From Georgenia satyanarayanai (lineage in GTDB: Bacteria > Actinomycetota > Actinomycetes > Actinomycetales > Actinomycetaceae): a stretch of 64,000 nt of DNA. The position numbers were made by a program, and so were the translations under genes. The notes beneath the pieces were generated by a model. It was not told the DNA's origin. It worked only from the letters and a program-made list of their open reading frames with translations, and did not search any database. The DNA lies in assembly GCF_900116375.1 (NCBI RefSeq), contig NZ_UETB01000016.1, positions 1 through 64,000 on the forward strand. The letters run 5' to 3'. Of the stretch, positions 38,070 to 44,899 are shown piece after piece; the first letter of the stretch is position 1, and each line of letters begins with the position of its first letter.

Positions 38070-40184
38070 TCAGCCCACCGGCACCGCCTCGCGCACGAGG
38101 GCGAGCACCTGCGCCGCGGCGCGGTCTGCCCCCGCGATGAGCGGGGAGGGCACGCCCGGCGTCGCACCGATCGCCGAGCCGGGCTGGACGTCGCCGGCCG
38201 GGATGCCGATGACGACGACGCGCGGGTCGGGCCGGCCCGCGGCGTCGAGGAGGTGGAACTCCTCGGGCGTCACGTCCAGGGTGCGCGTCGCGGCCACCGT
38301 GCCGTCCGGGCCGGTGCGCGCGTGCAGGCGGGCCCGGCCGGAGTCGAGCAGCGAGCGCAGCAGCGGGTCGTCGGTGACGTCGGCGTGGCCCTTGGACATG
38401 CGGGTCTCGACGAAGGCCCGCACCCGGTGCTCGCGCCCGATCACCTGGGTGCGGGCGACGAAGCGTCCGCGTTCCACGGTGACGGACAGCCCCTCGCCGA
38501 GGAGCTCGACGACGCCGGCCCGCACGAGGGCGAGCAGCTGGGCCGTGCGCTCGGGCGGCGGGCCGGACGCGAGCGCGAGGCCCAGCGTGCCGAACCAGCC
38601 GTTGACGTCGCGGACGGCCGACGCCGGGTGGATGGCCCCGGCGCGCACGAGCCCGGCGACCTGCCCGCGCAGCACCGCCATCGCGCGGTTGACCTCCGCG
38701 CGCGGGCTGGCGAGCGGCCGGGTGATCGACTCGTGCTCCGCGGCGACCCAGCGCTCGGTCCACGCCCGCCACGCCTCGGGCGAGGGGAGGCGGACGTCGG
38801 GCCGGTCGAGGCGCTCGACGTCGAGGTGGCGGGCGGGGTCGACGACGACGTCACGGACGAGGCCGTCGAGCTCGCTCACGTCCGCGGCGGCGAGGCGAGC
38901 GAGCAGGCCCGCGGGGAGCTCGCCGTCGTCGGCGGTGAGGGAGGGAACGGTGGCGGGGTGGTGCCGGACCAGGGTGGTGAGGTGGGCGACGACGAACTCG
39001 CGGGCGAGCTGGGGCCACACGTCGCGCGCGAAGTCCTGGTCGGGGACCGTCGCGGCCGCGGCGAACCACTCGGGGGTGGCGAGACGCGGCGTGTAGCGGG
39101 GCGGCAAGGCGCCGTACCAGGACTTCGATCGGTAGGGCAGGCCGCGACGCGAGCCGACGAGCAGGCGCGGCTCGCGTCCGGAGGGGAGGTAGGTGAGATC
39201 GAAGGGGGAGTCGCCGGGGACGAAGCGGCCGCCGCGGCCGGCGGTGAGGACGGCGACGACGTCGAAGAAGTTCGCGCCGAGCCCGGCGACGACGACGTCC
39301 TGCCCGCCCGGCACGACGTCCCAGTCCCGCTCGGCCGGCATGCCCGGCTCGACGTAGACGAGCCCGTGGTCCTCCGCGGCCGCGACGCGCTCCTCGGTCT
39401 GCCGGGACCGCTCGGCCTGGACCATCCCCTGCGCGAGCACGACGGCGGCGGCGGAGAACGCCCGCCCGTCCGCGAGCCGCACGACGCGCCGACTCTCACT
39501 CCCCGCCGACAGCGCCCCCTCTTCCGCCGACAGCTCACGTGTTGCGGGCGCCCCCTCTTCCGCCGACAGCTCAGCTGTTACTGGCTCGATGTCGACGACG
39601 GTGCCCACCACTGCGGTCAGCTCCACACCACCGCGCGCGAGGATCGCCTCGAGCTGCTCGCGGAAGTACACGCCCTGCAGACGTCGGGTCGGGTAGGACC
39701 AGGGCTGGACGGCCGCCGCCTCCTCGGCCACCCAGTCGGGGCGAGATCCTGCGCTCCAGCCGGCGGACGCGGGCGCCGTCGGGCGCGGGACGCCGGCGAC
39801 GACGTCGCGCGCCCACTGCACGAGGTCGGGCCCGGTCGTCACCGGTCCGGACATCGGGGTGGAGTCGTCGGGGTAGATGGTCGTGTGCGCGCTGTAGGTG
39901 TTGTTGAGGAGCTGCGGGCTCTGGTCGGTGCGCCAGGTCGCACCGGCACCGACCTCGAAGCGGTCGACGACGACGACGCGCACCGGCCGCTCGGGCGTCC
40001 CTCGGGCCGTGAGCCGTTCGACGACGGAGGCCGCGCGCGGACCCCCGCCGACGATGACGACGTCGGCGCTCAGGGCACCGTCAGTAACAACTGAGCTGTC
40101 GGCGAAAGTGGGGGCGCCCGTAACAACTGAGCTGTCGGCGGGGAGGGGGGTCGGGGGAAGGGGGGTCGGGGTGGGACGGGTCAT
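38070..40184 (-). CDS. Large FAD/NAD(P)-binding protein with in-frame repeat insertions
   Basis: 704 residues. A Rossmann start ADVVIVGGGPRAASVVERLTARG (from residue 40) and LLNNTYSAHTTIYPDDS (NAD_binding_9-type) point to an FAD-dependent monooxygenase-like enzyme; a second nucleotide motif is VVVAGLGANFFDVVAVL. The first 39 residues include two copies of ADSSVVT, and residues 202-225 are two 12-mers AELSAEEGA/RELSAEEGA. Both are translations of a dispersed DNA repeat and are probably not part of the ancestral enzyme. Last gene of the leader-controlled operon, coupled to the ATPase gene. Substrate unknown; it may modify the imported compound. Confidence 0.82.
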   Translation of the reverse strand: MTRPTPTPLPPTPLPADSSVVTGAPTFADSSVVTDGALSADVVIVGGGPRAASVVERLTARGTPERPVRVVVVDRFEVGAGATWRTDQSPQLLNNTYSAHTTIYPDDSTPMSGPVTTGPDLVQWARDVVAGVPRPTAPASAGWSAGSRPDWVAEEAAAVQPWSYPTRRLQGVYFREQLEAILARGGVELTAVVGTVVDIEPVTAELSAEEGAPATRELSAEEGALSAGSESRRVVRLADGRAFSAAAVVLAQGMVQAERSRQTEERVAAAEDHGLVYVEPGMPAERDWDVVPGGQDVVVAGLGANFFDVVAVLTAGRGGRFVPGDSPFDLTYLPSGREPRLLVGSRRGLPYRSKSWYGALPPRYTPRLATPEWFAAAATVPDQDFARDVWPQLAREFVVAHLTTLVRHHPATVPSLTADDGELPAGLLARLAAADVSELDGLVRDVVVDPARHLDVERLDRPDVRLPSPEAWRAWTERWVAAEHESITRPLASPRAEVNRAMAVLRGQVAGLVRAGAIHPASAVRDVNGWFGTLGLALASGPPPERTAQLLALVRAGVVELLGEGLSVTVERGRFVARTQVIGREHRVRAFVETRMSKGHADVTDDPLLRSLLDSGRARLHARTGPDGTVAATRTLDVTPEEFHLLDAAGRPDPRVVVIGIPAGDVQPGSAIGATPGVPSPLIAGADRAAAQVLALVREAVPVG
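39500..39581 (-). repeat. Dispersed repeat locus 3, inside the flavoprotein gene
   Basis: Two 36-bp units on the minus strand, starting GTAACAGCTGAGCTGTCGGCG (39546-39581) and GCAACACGTGAGCTGTCGGCG (39510-39545), followed by a partial CTGTCGGCGG unit down to about 39500. The first unit is 33/36 identical to the unit at 40084-40119. Translated as VTAELSAEEGAP and ATRELSAEEGAL, in frame. Confidence 0.85.
40084..40156 (+). repeat. Dispersed repeat locus 4, at the flavoprotein N-terminus
   Basis: Two direct 36-bp units, 40084-40119 and 40120-40155, each starting GTAACAACTGAGCTGTCGGCG. Orientation is opposite to locus 3, so the host gene reads the other strand (ADSSVVT). The frame is kept because the unit is a multiple of three. 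Confidence 0.85.
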
Positions 40185-41014
40185 GCGAGGGAGTCCTTCG
40201 CCAGGACGGGGCGGACCTGGGTCTGGCCGGCGTCGTGGAGGACCTCGACGGGCAGGCCGTAGACCTCACCGAGCAGCTCGGCGTCGTAGGCCTCCGGCGC
40301 GGGACCGTCCGCCACGAGACGGCCGCCGCTGAGGAGCACCACCTGCTGGCAGAAGGTCGCCGCGTGGTTGAGGTCGTGGATCGCGATGAGCGCCGCGACC
40401 CCTTCCTCGCGTGCCACCTGCCGCACGATCTGCAGCGTCTCCACCTGGTAGCGAAGGTCCAGGGCGGAGGTCGGCTCGTCGAGGAGGAGCACCCGCGGCT
40501 GCTGCGCCAGGGCCCGGGCGATGAGCACGCGCTGGGCCTGCCCGCCGGACATGTCCGAGAGCCGCCGCTCGGCGAGCTCGGCCAGGCCGAGCCGCGCGAT
40601 CGCGTCCTCGACCACCGCGACGTCCTGCGCGCTCGGCCGCATGCCCATGTGCGGGGTGCGGCCCAGCGTCACGGCCTCACGGACGGTCAGCTCGAAGGGC
40701 ACCTCGCTGGACTGCGGCACGTAGGCCACGACCTTGGCCCGCTCACGCGGCTTCATCGCCAGCAGGTCGCGGTCCCCGAGCCGCACCGCGCCCTGCCTGG
40801 TCCGCAGCACGCCGGCGAGGATCTTCGTCAGCGTCGACTTGCCCGAGCCGTTGGGCCCGAGCAGCGCGCACAGCGTGCCCGCCGCGACGTCGAGGTCGAT
40901 CCCGCGCAGCACCTGGTGCTTGCCGTAGGCGAACTCCACGTCACGGACGCTCAGCGCCGGGATCGGTGCCGTGGCCGCTCCCGCCGTCGTCGCCTGTTCC
41001 TGGACTGCAGTCAC
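40181..41014 (-). CDS. FecCD-type ABC importer ATP-binding protein
   Basis: 277 residues of the iron-siderophore/B12-class ATPase. Walker A GPNGSGKST, signature MSGGQAQRVLIARAL, Walker [14 protein letters not shown], His switch IAIHDLNHAA. A 20-residue Ala/Thr-rich N-terminal tail precedes the fold. GTG 41014 overlaps the permease stop by 4 bp, and its stop overlaps the flavoprotein ATG by 4 bp. It powers the importer made with the adjacent permease and binding protein. Leader context suggests a sulfur-linked substrate instead of iron; see the leader entry. Confidence 0.92.
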   Translation of the reverse strand: MTAVQEQATTAGAATAPIPALSVRDVEFAYGKHQVLRGIDLDVAAGTLCALLGPNGSGKSTLTKILAGVLRTRQGAVRLGDRDLLAMKPRERAKVVAYVPQSSEVPFELTVREAVTLGRTPHMGMRPSAQDVAVVEDAIARLGLAELAERRLSDMSGGQAQRVLIARALAQQPRVLLLDEPTSALDLRYQVETLQIVRQVAREEGVAALIAIHDLNHAATFCQQVVLLSGGRLVADGPAPEAYDAELLGEVYGLPVEVLHDAGQTQVRPVLAKDSLA

Positions 41015-42126
41015 TTCGAGGCCCTCCGCGTCATGATGAGGTAGATGAAGACGGGCGCGCCGAGCATCGCGACGACGATCCCCACGGGCACGACCGACGG
41101 CGCGACGACCGTGCGGCCGATGGTGTCCGCCGCGACGAGCAGCACGCCGCCCGACAGCGCCGACATCGGCAGCAGGTACTGGTGGTTGGCGCCGATGATG
41201 AGCCGGGCGATGTGCGGCCCGACCAGCCCGACGAAGCCGATCACCCCGCACAGGGACACCGCGACGGACGCGAGCAGCACCGACACGAGGATGAGCCCCA
41301 CCCGGACCACGGTGACGTTGACGCCGAGGGAGCGGGCGGCGTCGTCGCCGGCGAAGGCGATGGCGTTCATGTCCTTGGCGAACCACAGGAGCAGCGGCAG
41401 GAGCACGACGACGACGGCGCCCATGACCCGCACCTCGGTCCACGACGCGTCGTTGACCGACCCGAGGGTCCAGCGGACGATCGCCTGCAGGGTGTTCTCG
41501 TTGGCCACGTACTGCAGGCCGGCGGTCAGCGCCTCGAAGAGCTGGGTGACGGCGATGCCGAGGAGCAGCAGCGTCGCGACGGCCATCTTGCGCGCGGAGG
41601 CGAGCCCGAGGACGAGCATCGTCACCAGGCCGGCGCAGGCGAGCGCGGAGAGGATGACGAGCGGGTTGGACGAGGCGACCCCACCGCCGCCCAGGAGGAT
41701 CGCCAGCGACGCGCCGAAGGCCGCCGCGGGGGAGACCCCGAGGGTGAAGGGGCTGACGAGCGGGTTGCGCAGCAGTCCCTGCATGACGGCGCCGGCCACC
41801 GACAGCGCCGCGCCGGCGGCCAGCGCGAGCAGGGCGCGCGGCAGGCGCAGGTCGGCGACGATCGCGTAGGCCTGGGCGAAGTCCGGGTCGATCGTCCCGC
41901 CGGCCACGCGCAGCCACAGGATGCGCATGGCGTCGGCGAAGGTCACCCCCGAGGTCCCCACCGCCGTCGAGCCCGCGACGACGGCGACGGTCACCACCGC
42001 GGCGACGACGAGCACGAGCAGGCGGTGGTTGCCCAGCGCCCGCCGCAGCCCGCCGGGCTGGGACGCGGGCTGGACCGGGGCGGGTGCGGTGCGGGCGCCG
42101 GGGCGCGCGGGGGCGTCGGTGGTCAC
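41011..42126 (-). CDS. FecCD-type ABC importer permease
   Basis: 371 residues with a cytoplasmic Pro/Ala tail of about 35 residues, then about ten helices. Family landmarks: RLPRALLALAAGAALSVAGAVMQGLLRNPL, the conserved GxxxQGxxRNPLxxP region, TLGVSPAAAFGASLAIL, and CGVIGFVGLVGPHIARLIIGANHQYLLP near the end. Such permeases act with TroA/FhuD-like binding proteins on siderophores, cobalamin, haem or other bulky ligands. GTG 42126 overlaps the binding-protein stop by 4 bp; the longer open frame upstream overlaps that gene and is not used. Confidence 0.92.
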   Translation of the reverse strand: MTTDAPARPGARTAPAPVQPASQPGGLRRALGNHRLLVLVVAAVVTVAVVAGSTAVGTSGVTFADAMRILWLRVAGGTIDPDFAQAYAIVADLRLPRALLALAAGAALSVAGAVMQGLLRNPLVSPFTLGVSPAAAFGASLAILLGGGGVASSNPLVILSALACAGLVTMLVLGLASARKMAVATLLLLGIAVTQLFEALTAGLQYVANENTLQAIVRWTLGSVNDASWTEVRVMGAVVVVLLPLLLWFAKDMNAIAFAGDDAARSLGVNVTVVRVGLILVSVLLASVAVSLCGVIGFVGLVGPHIARLIIGANHQYLLPMSALSGGVLLVAADTIGRTVVAPSVVPVGIVVAMLGAPVFIYLIMTRRASK

Positions 42127-43226
42127 TGCGTGCCGCCGACGCTGACGTAGGCGTCCTCGCCCGGGTAGTCGGTGACGCCCTGGAACTCGGTGGCCCAGCG
42201 CTCGAGGTAACCGGCCGGGTCGAGGTCGGCCGTCTCCTCCGGGTGCAGCCAGGTGGCGAGGTAGGCGGTGGCGATCGCCTTGGCCAGCCCCGACGTCGCC
42301 CACCCGTTCGTCACGTAGACCTCACCGTTCTCGACGGCGCTGATCCCGGACCAGCCCGGCCGTGCGGGGATGCCGGCGACGATCTCGTCGACCTGCTCGG
42401 CCGGGTACGGGTCGGCCGACGGCGGCATCTCGTGGACGACGACGGCCGGGTCGCGCTCGACGACGGCGGCCGGGTCGACCGTGATCTCGTGCTGGGCGTC
42501 ACCGCCGGTGATGTCGCCGAAGACGTTGGTGCCGCCGGCGCCGGTGATGACCTGGTCGAAGCCCGAGCCGGGCAGCGCGGTGATGTAGGGCTGGTCGGTC
42601 TCCCAGTAGACCGGGACCGGCTCGAGGCCCGCGACGCTCTCCTCGACGGAGGTGACGATCTCGTCGTGGAAGTCCTTGACGGCCTGGGCGCCCTCGGGCT
42701 CCTCGAAGACCTCCCCGAGGATGCTGATCGTCTCCTCGAAGACGTCGACGTCCCAGGAGGTGACGACGACGACCGGGATGTCGAACTCCTCCAGCCGCTC
42801 CGAGGCCTCCTGCCAGGCGCCGTTGCGGGGGATGATCGCGACGTCCGGGTCGAGGGCGACGATCGCCTCGTAGTTGAGCTCGCCGATGCTCTCCCCGACG
42901 ACGTCCTCCTCGGTGAGCCCGAGGTAGGGCGCGCGCTGGACCGTGCCGCGGTCGACGCCGACGACGCGGTCGCCCGCGCCGATCGCCTCGACGAACTCGT
43001 TGTTGTAGGAGAGGGCGACGACGGCGCGGTCGACCGGGCCCTCGATCGTCACCTCCCGGTCCTGGTCGTCGACGACGGTGATCTCGCTCGCCCCGTCGGT
43101 GGTGGCGGCGTCGGAGGTCGCGCCGTCGTCGCCGTCGTCGCCGTCGGCGACCTCGACCTGGCCGCACGCCGCCAGCGTGAGGGCGGAGGCGGCGAGGACG
43201 GCGGCGGTGCGGGTGGTGCGGGTCAT
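42123..43226 (-). CDS. FecB/TroA-like ABC substrate-binding lipoprotein
   Basis: 367 residues. Signal peptide and lipobox LAAC at residues 18-21, an Asp/Gly-rich linker, then TVVDDQDREVTIEGPVDRAVVALSYNNEFVEAIGAGDRVVGVD, the entry of PF01497-type binding proteins. EAIVALDPDVAII and LDPAGYLERWATEFQG near the C-terminus agree. No feature fixes the ligand. ATG 43226 overlaps the upstream stop by 4 bp. This is the specificity subunit of the importer in the leader-controlled operon. Confidence 0.9.
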   Translation of the reverse strand: MTRTTRTAAVLAASALTLAACGQVEVADGDDGDDGATSDAATTDGASEITVVDDQDREVTIEGPVDRAVVALSYNNEFVEAIGAGDRVVGVDRGTVQRAPYLGLTEEDVVGESIGELNYEAIVALDPDVAIIPRNGAWQEASERLEEFDIPVVVVTSWDVDVFEETISILGEVFEEPEGAQAVKDFHDEIVTSVEESVAGLEPVPVYWETDQPYITALPGSGFDQVITGAGGTNVFGDITGGDAQHEITVDPAAVVERDPAVVVHEMPPSADPYPAEQVDEIVAGIPARPGWSGISAVENGEVYVTNGWATSGLAKAIATAYLATWLHPEETADLDPAGYLERWATEFQGVTDYPGEDAYVSVGGTQ

Positions 43227-44470
43227 CGGGTCTCTCCGGTGGTGGGGTCGGTAACTGCGCTGTCGGCGGCAAGTGCGCTGTCGGCGGCAAGTGCGCTGTC
43301 GGCGGTAAGTGGGGTGTCGGCGGGGAGGTGGGGCTCGCCGAGGGTGAGCATGAGGCGGTTGGCCCACGAGAAGAAGGCGACCGAGGCGACGAGGTCGACG
43401 AGCTCGACCGGCTCGAGGCCGAGCTCCCGCAGCCGCGTGACGTGCGCGGCGGTGGCGCGGGAGGGTGAGGCGGCCAGCGCGGCGGAGAGGTCGACGACCG
43501 CCGCCCAGCGCTCGTCCTGGCCGGCGCTCAGCGCGGTCAGGTCGGCCGGGGCCCACCCCGGTCCGCGGGGGACGTCGGCGGCGAGGAGGCGGTCGACGTC
43601 CTCGGGGCGCTTGCTCAGCTGCGCGGCCTTCCGGGCGTGGACGGAGGCGCAGAAGAGGCAGTCGTTGACCTTGCTCGTCACGGCGGCGGCGAGCTCGCGC
43701 TCGGCCCGCGGCAGTCCCACGCGGGTGAGGAAGACGGCGTGGTCGATCTGCGTGCGGGCGGCCAGCACGCCGGTCTCGCGGGCGAGGAGACGGAAGTAGG
43801 AGCCGTCGCTCTTGCCGGCGAAGGCGGCGCGGTGCTCGTCGGTCAGCTCCTCCGCGGGGATCGGCTCGACCCAGGGCAGCCAGCCGAGCAGCTCGCGGGT
43901 GTAGACGCGGGGCACGGGCAGCCCGTTCGGGGCGACGTCGGGGGCGTACTTCCCGCGCGCGGGCAGGTCTGCCGCCGGGGCGGGGGTGGCGCCATCGTCG
44001 TGGCCGGCGAGCAGTCGCAGCCCGGTGACGAGGCGGGCCTCGTAGGCGGTGACGGCGACGACCTGGGAGAGCAGGACGATGCCGTCCGCGTCGAGGCCGA
44101 CGGCGGTGAGCGCGGCGACGTCCTGCGGGGTGACGAGCGCGGGGGCGAGGGAGAGCAGGTCCGCGTGGCGCACGAGGGCGGCGACGGACTCGTCGGCCGT
44201 GGCGACGGTGAGGTCGACGGGGTCGTGCCGGTGGTGCTCCTGCGCCAGTCCCGGCGCGCCGTGCTGCTCGGCGACGCGCGCGGCCAGCGCCCGACGCAGC
44301 GCCGGGGACAGACGGCCGGGGTCGGTGAAGAGGTGGTCGTGGGCGCGCTGGGTGTGCTCGATGACCTCGGGCTTGGCGAGGCGTGCCTCGGCGGTGGCCG
44401 GGTCGAGCTCCGCGAGGACGCCGACGAGGTCCTCGCGGGCGGTGGGCGGGCGGTGGGCGGTGGCGGTCAT
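43223..44470 (-). CDS. CMD/alkylhydroperoxidase (AhpD-like) fusion protein
   Basis: 415 residues, apparently two carboxymuconolactone-decarboxylase-fold halves fused. Residues 1-170 (EVIEHTQRAHDHLFTDPGRLSP, LSQVVAVTAYEARLVTGLRLL) resemble the Cys-less CMD proteins of the Avi_7170 type. Residues 190-390 resemble the alkylhydroperoxidase-domain Avi_7169 type and hold the CxxC-x2-H site in NDCLFCASVHARKAAQLSK. The two are usually separate neighbours; family naming is from memory. The C-terminal tail consists of 6-residue repeats ADSALA made by a DNA repeat array. ATG 44470 has GGAG 9 nt upstream. It is the first structural gene behind the Cys-rich leader. Confidence 0.82.
   Translation of the reverse strand: MTATAHRPPTAREDLVGVLAELDPATAEARLAKPEVIEHTQRAHDHLFTDPGRLSPALRRALAARVAEQHGAPGLAQEHHRHDPVDLTVATADESVAALVRHADLLSLAPALVTPQDVAALTAVGLDADGIVLLSQVVAVTAYEARLVTGLRLLAGHDDGATPAPAADLPARGKYAPDVAPNGLPVPRVYTRELLGWLPWVEPIPAEELTDEHRAAFAGKSDGSYFRLLARETGVLAARTQIDHAVFLTRVGLPRAERELAAAVTSKVNDCLFCASVHARKAAQLSKRPEDVDRLLAADVPRGPGWAPADLTALSAGQDERWAAVVDLSAALAASPSRATAAHVTRLRELGLEPVELVDLVASVAFFSWANRLMLTLGEPHLPADTPLTADSALAADSALAADSAVTDPTTGETR
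43251..43322 (+). repeat. Dispersed repeat locus 5: four 18-bp units at the 3' end of the CMD gene
   Basis: Units 43251-43268 (GTAACTGCGCTGTCGGCG), 43269-43286 and 43287-43304 (GCAAGTGCGCTGTCGGCG, identical), 43305-43322 (GTAAGTGGGGTGTCGGCG), followed by GGGGAGGTGGGG. Each is 6 codons and keeps the frame of the host gene. Confidence 0.85.
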
Positions 44471-44624
44471 GGGTGCTCCAGGACTGGGTACGCGGCAGCG
44501 CCGCAGTGGTGAGGGTGAGCTCCCGCGTCCCGCGTGCGACGGCACGACGAGGAAGGGAGGTCAGCGCCGGGACGGCCGGCGGGGGTGGGCGGCGGCGGGC
44601 TCAGCGGCCCGCGGGATCAACGCC

Positions 44625-44726
44625 TCAGGCGGGACAACAACACATGCACGCCGAGGCGCGCATGCACATGCACAGGGTGGTGCTCGGCGCGAGACGCGTC
44701 CCCACACTCGTGTGCATGCTCATCAT
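44625..44726 (-). CDS. Cysteine-rich leader ORF (putative attenuator peptide)
   Basis: 33 codons on the minus strand, starting ATGATG at 44726 with GGGAGG 3 nt upstream. The product ends LCMCMRASACMCCCPA: six Cys in the last 15 residues, including three consecutive TGT codons, rare in a genome that otherwise prefers TGC. The stop lies 154 bp before the CMD/AhpD start, and the interval is GC-rich and could fold. Cys-rich upstream ORFs that sense charged tRNA-Cys are known before sulfur-metabolism genes in mycobacteria and other actinobacteria. I infer that cysteine shortage stalls ribosomes here and induces the operon. Not seen in the longer ORFs because of its length. Confidence 0.75.
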   Translation of the reverse strand: MMSMHTSVGTRLAPSTTLCMCMRASACMCCCPA

Positions 44727-44762
44727 GGTCCTCCCAGCTCGCGGCGGGCGCCGCGATCGTTC

Positions 44763-44780
44763 GGGCACGCGAGCGTGCCC
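44763..44780. promoter_or_regulatory. Hairpin in the leader 5' UTR
   Basis: GGGCACGC (44763-44770) and GCGTGCCC (44773-44780) form a perfect 8-bp stem with a 2-nt centre, about 36 nt upstream of the leader ATG. It may be part of the control RNA. Confidence 0.5.
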
Positions 44781-44792
44781 CCGACGTCGACG

Positions 44793-44821
44793 ACGCTACG
44801 CCTCGCTGGTTGAAGATCCAA
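44793..44821 (-). promoter_or_regulatory. Candidate promoter of the leader operon
   Basis: Minus strand TTGGAT (44816-44821), 17-bp spacer, TAGCGT (44793-44798). The minus-35 overlaps an inverted repeat GGTTGAAGATCCAACC (44808-44823) that could bind a regulator. The predicted start gives a leader of about 60 nt before the ATG. Confidence 0.5.
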
Positions 44822-44899
44822 CCACCTGCCGGCGTCCGTCCCAGCCCGTGGGACGGACGCCGCCGCGGTGTCCGGCCCGTGGCCCGCGCCGGTGACGAC

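Follow-up and report, generated by a model that had tools for sequence, protein, structure and literature searches.

Short cysteine-rich leader ORFs have been described upstream of cys operons in actinobacteria, where no obvious terminators were present and Rho was suggested to terminate transcription (PMC1262725). Leaders of this type show ribosome occupancy in Mycobacterium smegmatis (PMC4633059), and cysteine-dependent function is credited to Canestrari et al. (2020) in PMC9031893 and PMC13236596. The two earlier papers (PMC1262725, PMC4633059) bear out the premise of the sequence-only reading that preceded this analysis, namely that Cys-rich leader ORFs are known in actinobacteria. That reading was made on 64,000 nucleotides of a Georgenia satyanarayanai contig (NZ_UETB01000016.1), here called the window, and proposed that a leader ORF of this kind places an operon for an importer and redox enzymes under cysteine control.

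The leader ORF, which predicts the peptide MMSMHTSVGTRLAPSTTLCMCMRASACMCCCPA, is on the minus strand at 44726..44625 and comprises 33 codons and a stop, exactly where it had been placed. Its own SD sequence, GGGAGGACC, is before the ATG, and it includes six Cys codons, the final three being TGT TGT TGT (44634..44642, minus strand), all as previously claimed. Alignments indicate that the conserved start is probably the second ATG (44723), the first being found in this genome alone, and codons are numbered below from the conserved start, which makes the TGT run codons 28–30. TGC is indeed the normal Cys codon: 36 ORFs of the window, selected by GC3, use it 46 times and TGT 5 times (∼90% TGC), and three consecutive TGT codons are therefore unusual. 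The CCC run is unique to this ORF among the 269 short ORFs (10–60 codons) in the six frames of the window. The leader peptide has no match in Pfam or NCBIfam and could not be placed in a leader peptide family, no significant second copy was found elsewhere in the genome, and no defence systems were found. The Cys-rich leader ORF is real and conserved, and it occupies part of the operon's 5′ region.

Five genes follow in one direction with a 4-nt overlap at each junction, which agrees with the earlier description of a coupled operon. All are on the minus strand. The first gene (43223..44470) predicts a two-domain carboxymuconolactone decarboxylase (CMD)/alkylhydroperoxidase-like protein that matches part of TIGR04029 together with TIGR04030. 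It is followed by genes for a FecB/BtuF-type substrate-binding lipoprotein (42123..43226; PF01497), a FecCD-family permease (41011..42126; PF01032), an ABC transporter ATPase of the FecE/BtuD type (40181..41014), and an FAD/NAD(P)-binding monooxygenase-like flavoprotein (38070..40184), for which PF13454 is the only family match.

The CMD protein was searched for in 213 genomes of the family. The leader ORF was found upstream of the CMD gene in the genome of the window (G000), in four further genomes of the genus (G137, G138, G140 and G141; the Georgenia genomes are G000 and G137–G141), and in one genome of a second genus (G108). Length, frame, start, SD and stop are the same in all six loci with zero indels, and a leader profile search of the family recovered exactly these six loci at E < 1e-16, with the next best at 0.004. 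Between G000 and G108, the comparison that crosses genera, the leader ORF is 88% identical without indels, while identity is 64% in the 5′ UTR, 56% in the 45 nt past the leader stop, 24% in the remaining spacer, and 64% at the start of the CMD gene. The conserved block is therefore confined to the ORF, and judged by these alignments its conservation across the genus boundary is far beyond chance.

Conservation of the Cys run had been named as a point on which the proposal could fall, and codons 28–29 (TGT TGT) are invariant in the six loci. The entire TGT run is invariant in five of them, and in G141 codon 30 is Arg (CGT) instead of Cys. Cys codons 18 and 26 are each kept in five of six loci, codon 20 is Cys in all six, and Met does not vary at codons 19 and 27. 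The expectation that the Cys run is kept while the rest varies was only partly correct: the run is kept, but nucleotide-level conservation extends over the entire ORF, with pN/pS of 0.88 overall. Codons 18–33 show a peptide-like pattern (pS 0.22, pN 0.09), and codons 1–17 show one that is not peptide-like (pS 0.08, pN 0.15) and resembles nucleotide conservation. Leader conservation is for the most part of the nucleotide kind, and we conclude that constraint acts on both the Cys codons and the surrounding RNA. The Cys-rich leaders of Mycobacterium tuberculosis likewise are without ordinary coding signatures (PMC9094748).

These values bear on two alternatives. A functional small Cys-rich peptide, either metal-binding or a RiPP precursor, could partner the importer and the oxygenase, and the Cys-rich C terminus next to genes for a FecBCD-type importer and an N-hydroxylase-like flavoprotein would suit such a role. 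However, pN/pS of 0.88 does not indicate peptide-type selection across the entire ORF, and a peptide that matches no Pfam or NCBIfam entry and is missing from the orthologous operons in other genera makes this role highly improbable. Alternatively, the conserved block could be a structured RNA element or DNA site in which the ORF and its Cys run are incidental. Conservation that extends to the synonymous sites of codons 1–17 is consistent with this, as is a hairpin between codons 3–7 and 17–20 that is formed in 97% of cells, where variation is too little for proof. Yet the block edges coincide with the ORF edges, and the frame, length and SD are kept without indels. Covariation in the block is barely above that of shuffles, and neither the window nor nine related loci contained an Rfam family or known riboswitch, so that an element of this type is very unlikely.

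The promoter and hairpin that had been reported upstream of the leader are both present. The predicted promoter (44793..44821, minus strand) consists of a −35 TTGGAT (44821–44816), a 17-nt spacer and a −10 TAGCGT (44798–44793). TAGCGT is kept in all six loci, 68–79 nt ahead of the leader, with a recognisable −35 and diverging flanks; a promoter scan with an E. coli-type consensus gave no match at this site. The −10 ends 69 nt before the conserved leader start, which predicts a 5′ UTR of ∼60 nt from sequence only, and with the SD this suggests that the transcript is not leaderless. An inverted repeat, GGTTGgatcttCAACC (44808..44823, minus strand), overlaps the −35 and was also found in G137, G138 and G141, with one arm degenerate in G140. 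It may be an operator. The genome has a single copy of GGTTGNNNNNTCAACC, and the operator-like repeat was not found elsewhere.

Two 5′ UTR hairpins (44739..44780, minus strand; GGGCACG..CGTGCCC and TCGCGGC..GCCGCGA) precede the leader SD. They fold in five of six loci, and in G141 the arms are changed yet still pair, with energies in the range of composition-matched shuffles. In the consensus fold the TGT run pairs with the SD of the leader, but in most species this pairing was no stronger than in shuffles, and it was rejected.

A short terminator-like hairpin formed by codons 21–27 and followed by UGUGUUGUUGU is located inside the ORF. Transcription attenuation could occur at this hairpin if the position of the ribosome decides its folding, and TGT would then have been chosen for its U content. 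No other terminator-like site was found in the region. The hairpin is present in most species, though in a different register in G141, and the choice of TGT runs against codon usage. Nevertheless, a helix of about six pairs with a mixed G/U tail and zero compensatory changes makes attenuation at this position quite unlikely. A terminator scan of the region found no intrinsic terminator between the leader and the CMD gene, and because the sole terminator-like site sits within the leader ORF, the locus lacks what a classical trp-type attenuator requires.

The spacer between the leader and the CMD gene (44471..44624, minus strand) is C-rich (C 0.47, G 0.31) and is a candidate Rho entry region. 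Its excess of C over G is in the top 1–2.5% of windows on either strand. Spacer length ranges from 154 to 407 nt across relatives, and the sequence is poorly conserved; the 407-nt spacer of G108 (L051) holds repeated units like GGGGTCAGCTGAACGCCGATCA.

In mycobacterial polycysteine leaders, a ribosome stalled on the Cys codons is reported to open a structure by which the RBS of the first gene is otherwise hidden. Translational attenuation of this kind would need no terminator and has the closest described actinobacterial precedent. However, folding with the ribosome at six positions in six species revealed no consistent change in exposure of the CMD SD. Accessibility of the SD and start barely shifts with ribosome position, and the direction is inconsistent. 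Together with a spacer that varies in length and is poorly conserved, this renders translational attenuation unlikely. Rho-dependent termination in the C-rich spacer fits best as the output. Rho is preferred mainly by elimination, since no terminator and no change in SD accessibility were found, and positive support for it is weak.

The sulfur metabolism of Georgenia provides further context. No CysH was detected in the six Georgenia genomes (G139 is only 57% complete), in a search that detected it in 11 of 14 reference genomes used as a control. Assimilatory sulfite reductase was also not found in the Georgenia genomes, where NirB is the sole PF01077 protein. Georgenia therefore seem unable to reduce sulfate, which is no more than a hint that the operon serves cysteine or sulfur metabolism. 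CysH is present in 206 of 396 genomes of the order and in three (G255, G466 and G572) of the 19 in the order that carry this CMD protein, an association that is merely suggestive because the 19 genomes cluster in few genera.

Other candidate leaders were found in the genus. A conserved mini-ORF with an SD and a GTG or ATG start lies ∼130–210 nt upstream of cysK in Georgenia (L060–L065), and after it comes an inverted repeat that is GC-rich and also conserved. It includes four Cys in G141 and G139, where it ends in CCCRPCQ or CCCSCL, and one or two Cys in the remaining four of the six genomes. In G138 (L066) and G140 (L067), an SD and the ORF MAQTCC[R/L][C/F]PGFVPPG[P/L]PHAA, which includes TGT TGT and ends in a stop, are located between ∼200 and ∼90 nt upstream of metN, with permease and lipoprotein genes after metN. 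A textbook intrinsic terminator, ACGAGGCACGAGTCCGTGCCTCGTTTTTTT, separates this leader from metN in both genomes, and the arrangement resembles classical transcription attenuation by Cys codons, here of metNIQ.

The best solved relative of the flavoprotein is a Streptomyces L-aspartate N-hydroxylase (PDB 8cp2, E 5.8e-70) from a nitrosuccinate-forming family (PMC10404684), and the flavoprotein is therefore probably an NADPH-dependent monooxygenase that acts on an amino compound. The type of importer suggests a large or chelating substrate, and the leader suggests that the substrate includes sulfur. A sulfur-containing substrate, which we infer, is plausible but weak, because relatives outside the six-locus group have this operon but not its leader and because the flavoprotein is nearest to an aspartate N-hydroxylase. 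The whole operon is kept without a Cys-rich leader in G449, G548, G483 and G387, and no convincing Cys-rich leader was found at orthologous operons in genera outside the six-locus group. G058, G514 and G480 have the CMD and flavoprotein genes, and FecBCD genes are not nearby. In G058 and G514 the two genes are near a Dpp-type importer, which in G058 includes a TIGR04028 substrate-binding protein, and a gene resembling glutamate-cysteine ligase comes next in G514 and G480. The literature search found no described function for this operon and no paper on the TIGR04029/TIGR04030 cassette.

The reading that we prefer, with a probability of roughly 0.7, is that the leader is a translated uORF in which the Cys codons sense charged tRNA-Cys and thereby control the CMD-FecB-FecCD-ATPase-flavoprotein operon, probably via Rho. 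We infer that the leader is transcribed and translated, that ribosomes stall in it and that Rho is the terminator. When cysteine is plentiful, the ribosome would complete the leader and depart, exposing at least 150 nt of C-rich untranslated spacer, and most transcription would end before it reaches the first gene, with Rho as the likeliest cause. When cysteine is scarce, the ribosome would stall at CMC or CCC, there would be refolding or masking of the structured ORF and the region past its stop, and more transcripts would reach the operon. In this reading, a compound taken up and oxidised by the operon's products would provide reduced sulfur to cells that apparently cannot reduce sulfate, which is the weakest step.

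Sensing of cysteine is favoured because CysH and sulfite reductase were not found, leaders are also present at cysK and metN, and Cys-rich leaders are known in actinobacteria. The operon is thus probably under cysteine control via the leader. Against this, conservation in codons 1–17 is not peptide-like, the cysK leader is Cys-poor in four of six genomes, and the operons of G449 and of family f11 genomes lack the leader. The output step is unproven, because there is no downstream terminator and no consistent change in SD accessibility. A broader proposal is possible but doubtful, namely that in bacteria lacking sulfate assimilation a Cys leader with ORF-internal hairpins runs a FecBCD importer and an N-hydroxylase-like flavoprotein as an unrecognised organic-sulfur route, possibly for a compound that can be N- or S-oxidised.

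A regulatory leader reveals what the cell lacks when the operon is switched on. If this leader is cysteine-responsive, an operon combining TIGR04029/04030 with an aspartate N-hydroxylase-related flavoprotein would be assigned to sulfur supply in organisms that apparently cannot reduce sulfate, and its substrate would become searchable by growth tests. The known range of Cys-rich leaders would also widen to genes other than those of cysteine biosynthesis and to transcripts that are not leaderless.

Compared with described systems, the operon resembles the TIGR04029/TIGR04030 cassette (Avi_7170/Avi_7169, with a TIGR04028 substrate-binding protein) in its first gene, but uses a FecBCD-type importer instead. 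The S. lividans metL leader, MSTTSDRTPATEATTTPGARCMCRRMCAF, precedes metNIQ (PMC8079986) and shares a CMC..C motif at the leader end and a position before a sulfur amino acid importer, though it is described as Met- and Thr-rich and leaderless (PMC8079986). A wider CMCRR.C leader class derived from metL matched 19 of 346 genomes, mostly without a start codon or within other genes, and was set aside as chance-like. The mycobacterial leaderless attenuators of Canestrari et al. (2020), as described in papers that cite the work, are also polycysteine sORFs before an operon and conserved between species. The Georgenia leader differs in that it has an SD and is predicted to follow a 5′ UTR, and stall-dependent exposure of a downstream RBS was not supported by folding here. 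The Seliverstov-type leaders (2005, PMC1262725) have several features in common with it, namely a short conserved ORF upstream of an operon with clustered Cys near the stop, here conserved in six loci of two genera, and the absence of a clear terminator with Rho as the suggested factor. The likeness is one of layout, and importer and oxidoreductase genes are downstream here where cysteine biosynthesis genes are found there. Overall, the leader probably acts as an attenuator that responds to cysteine, a kind of device for which actinobacteria already provide examples.
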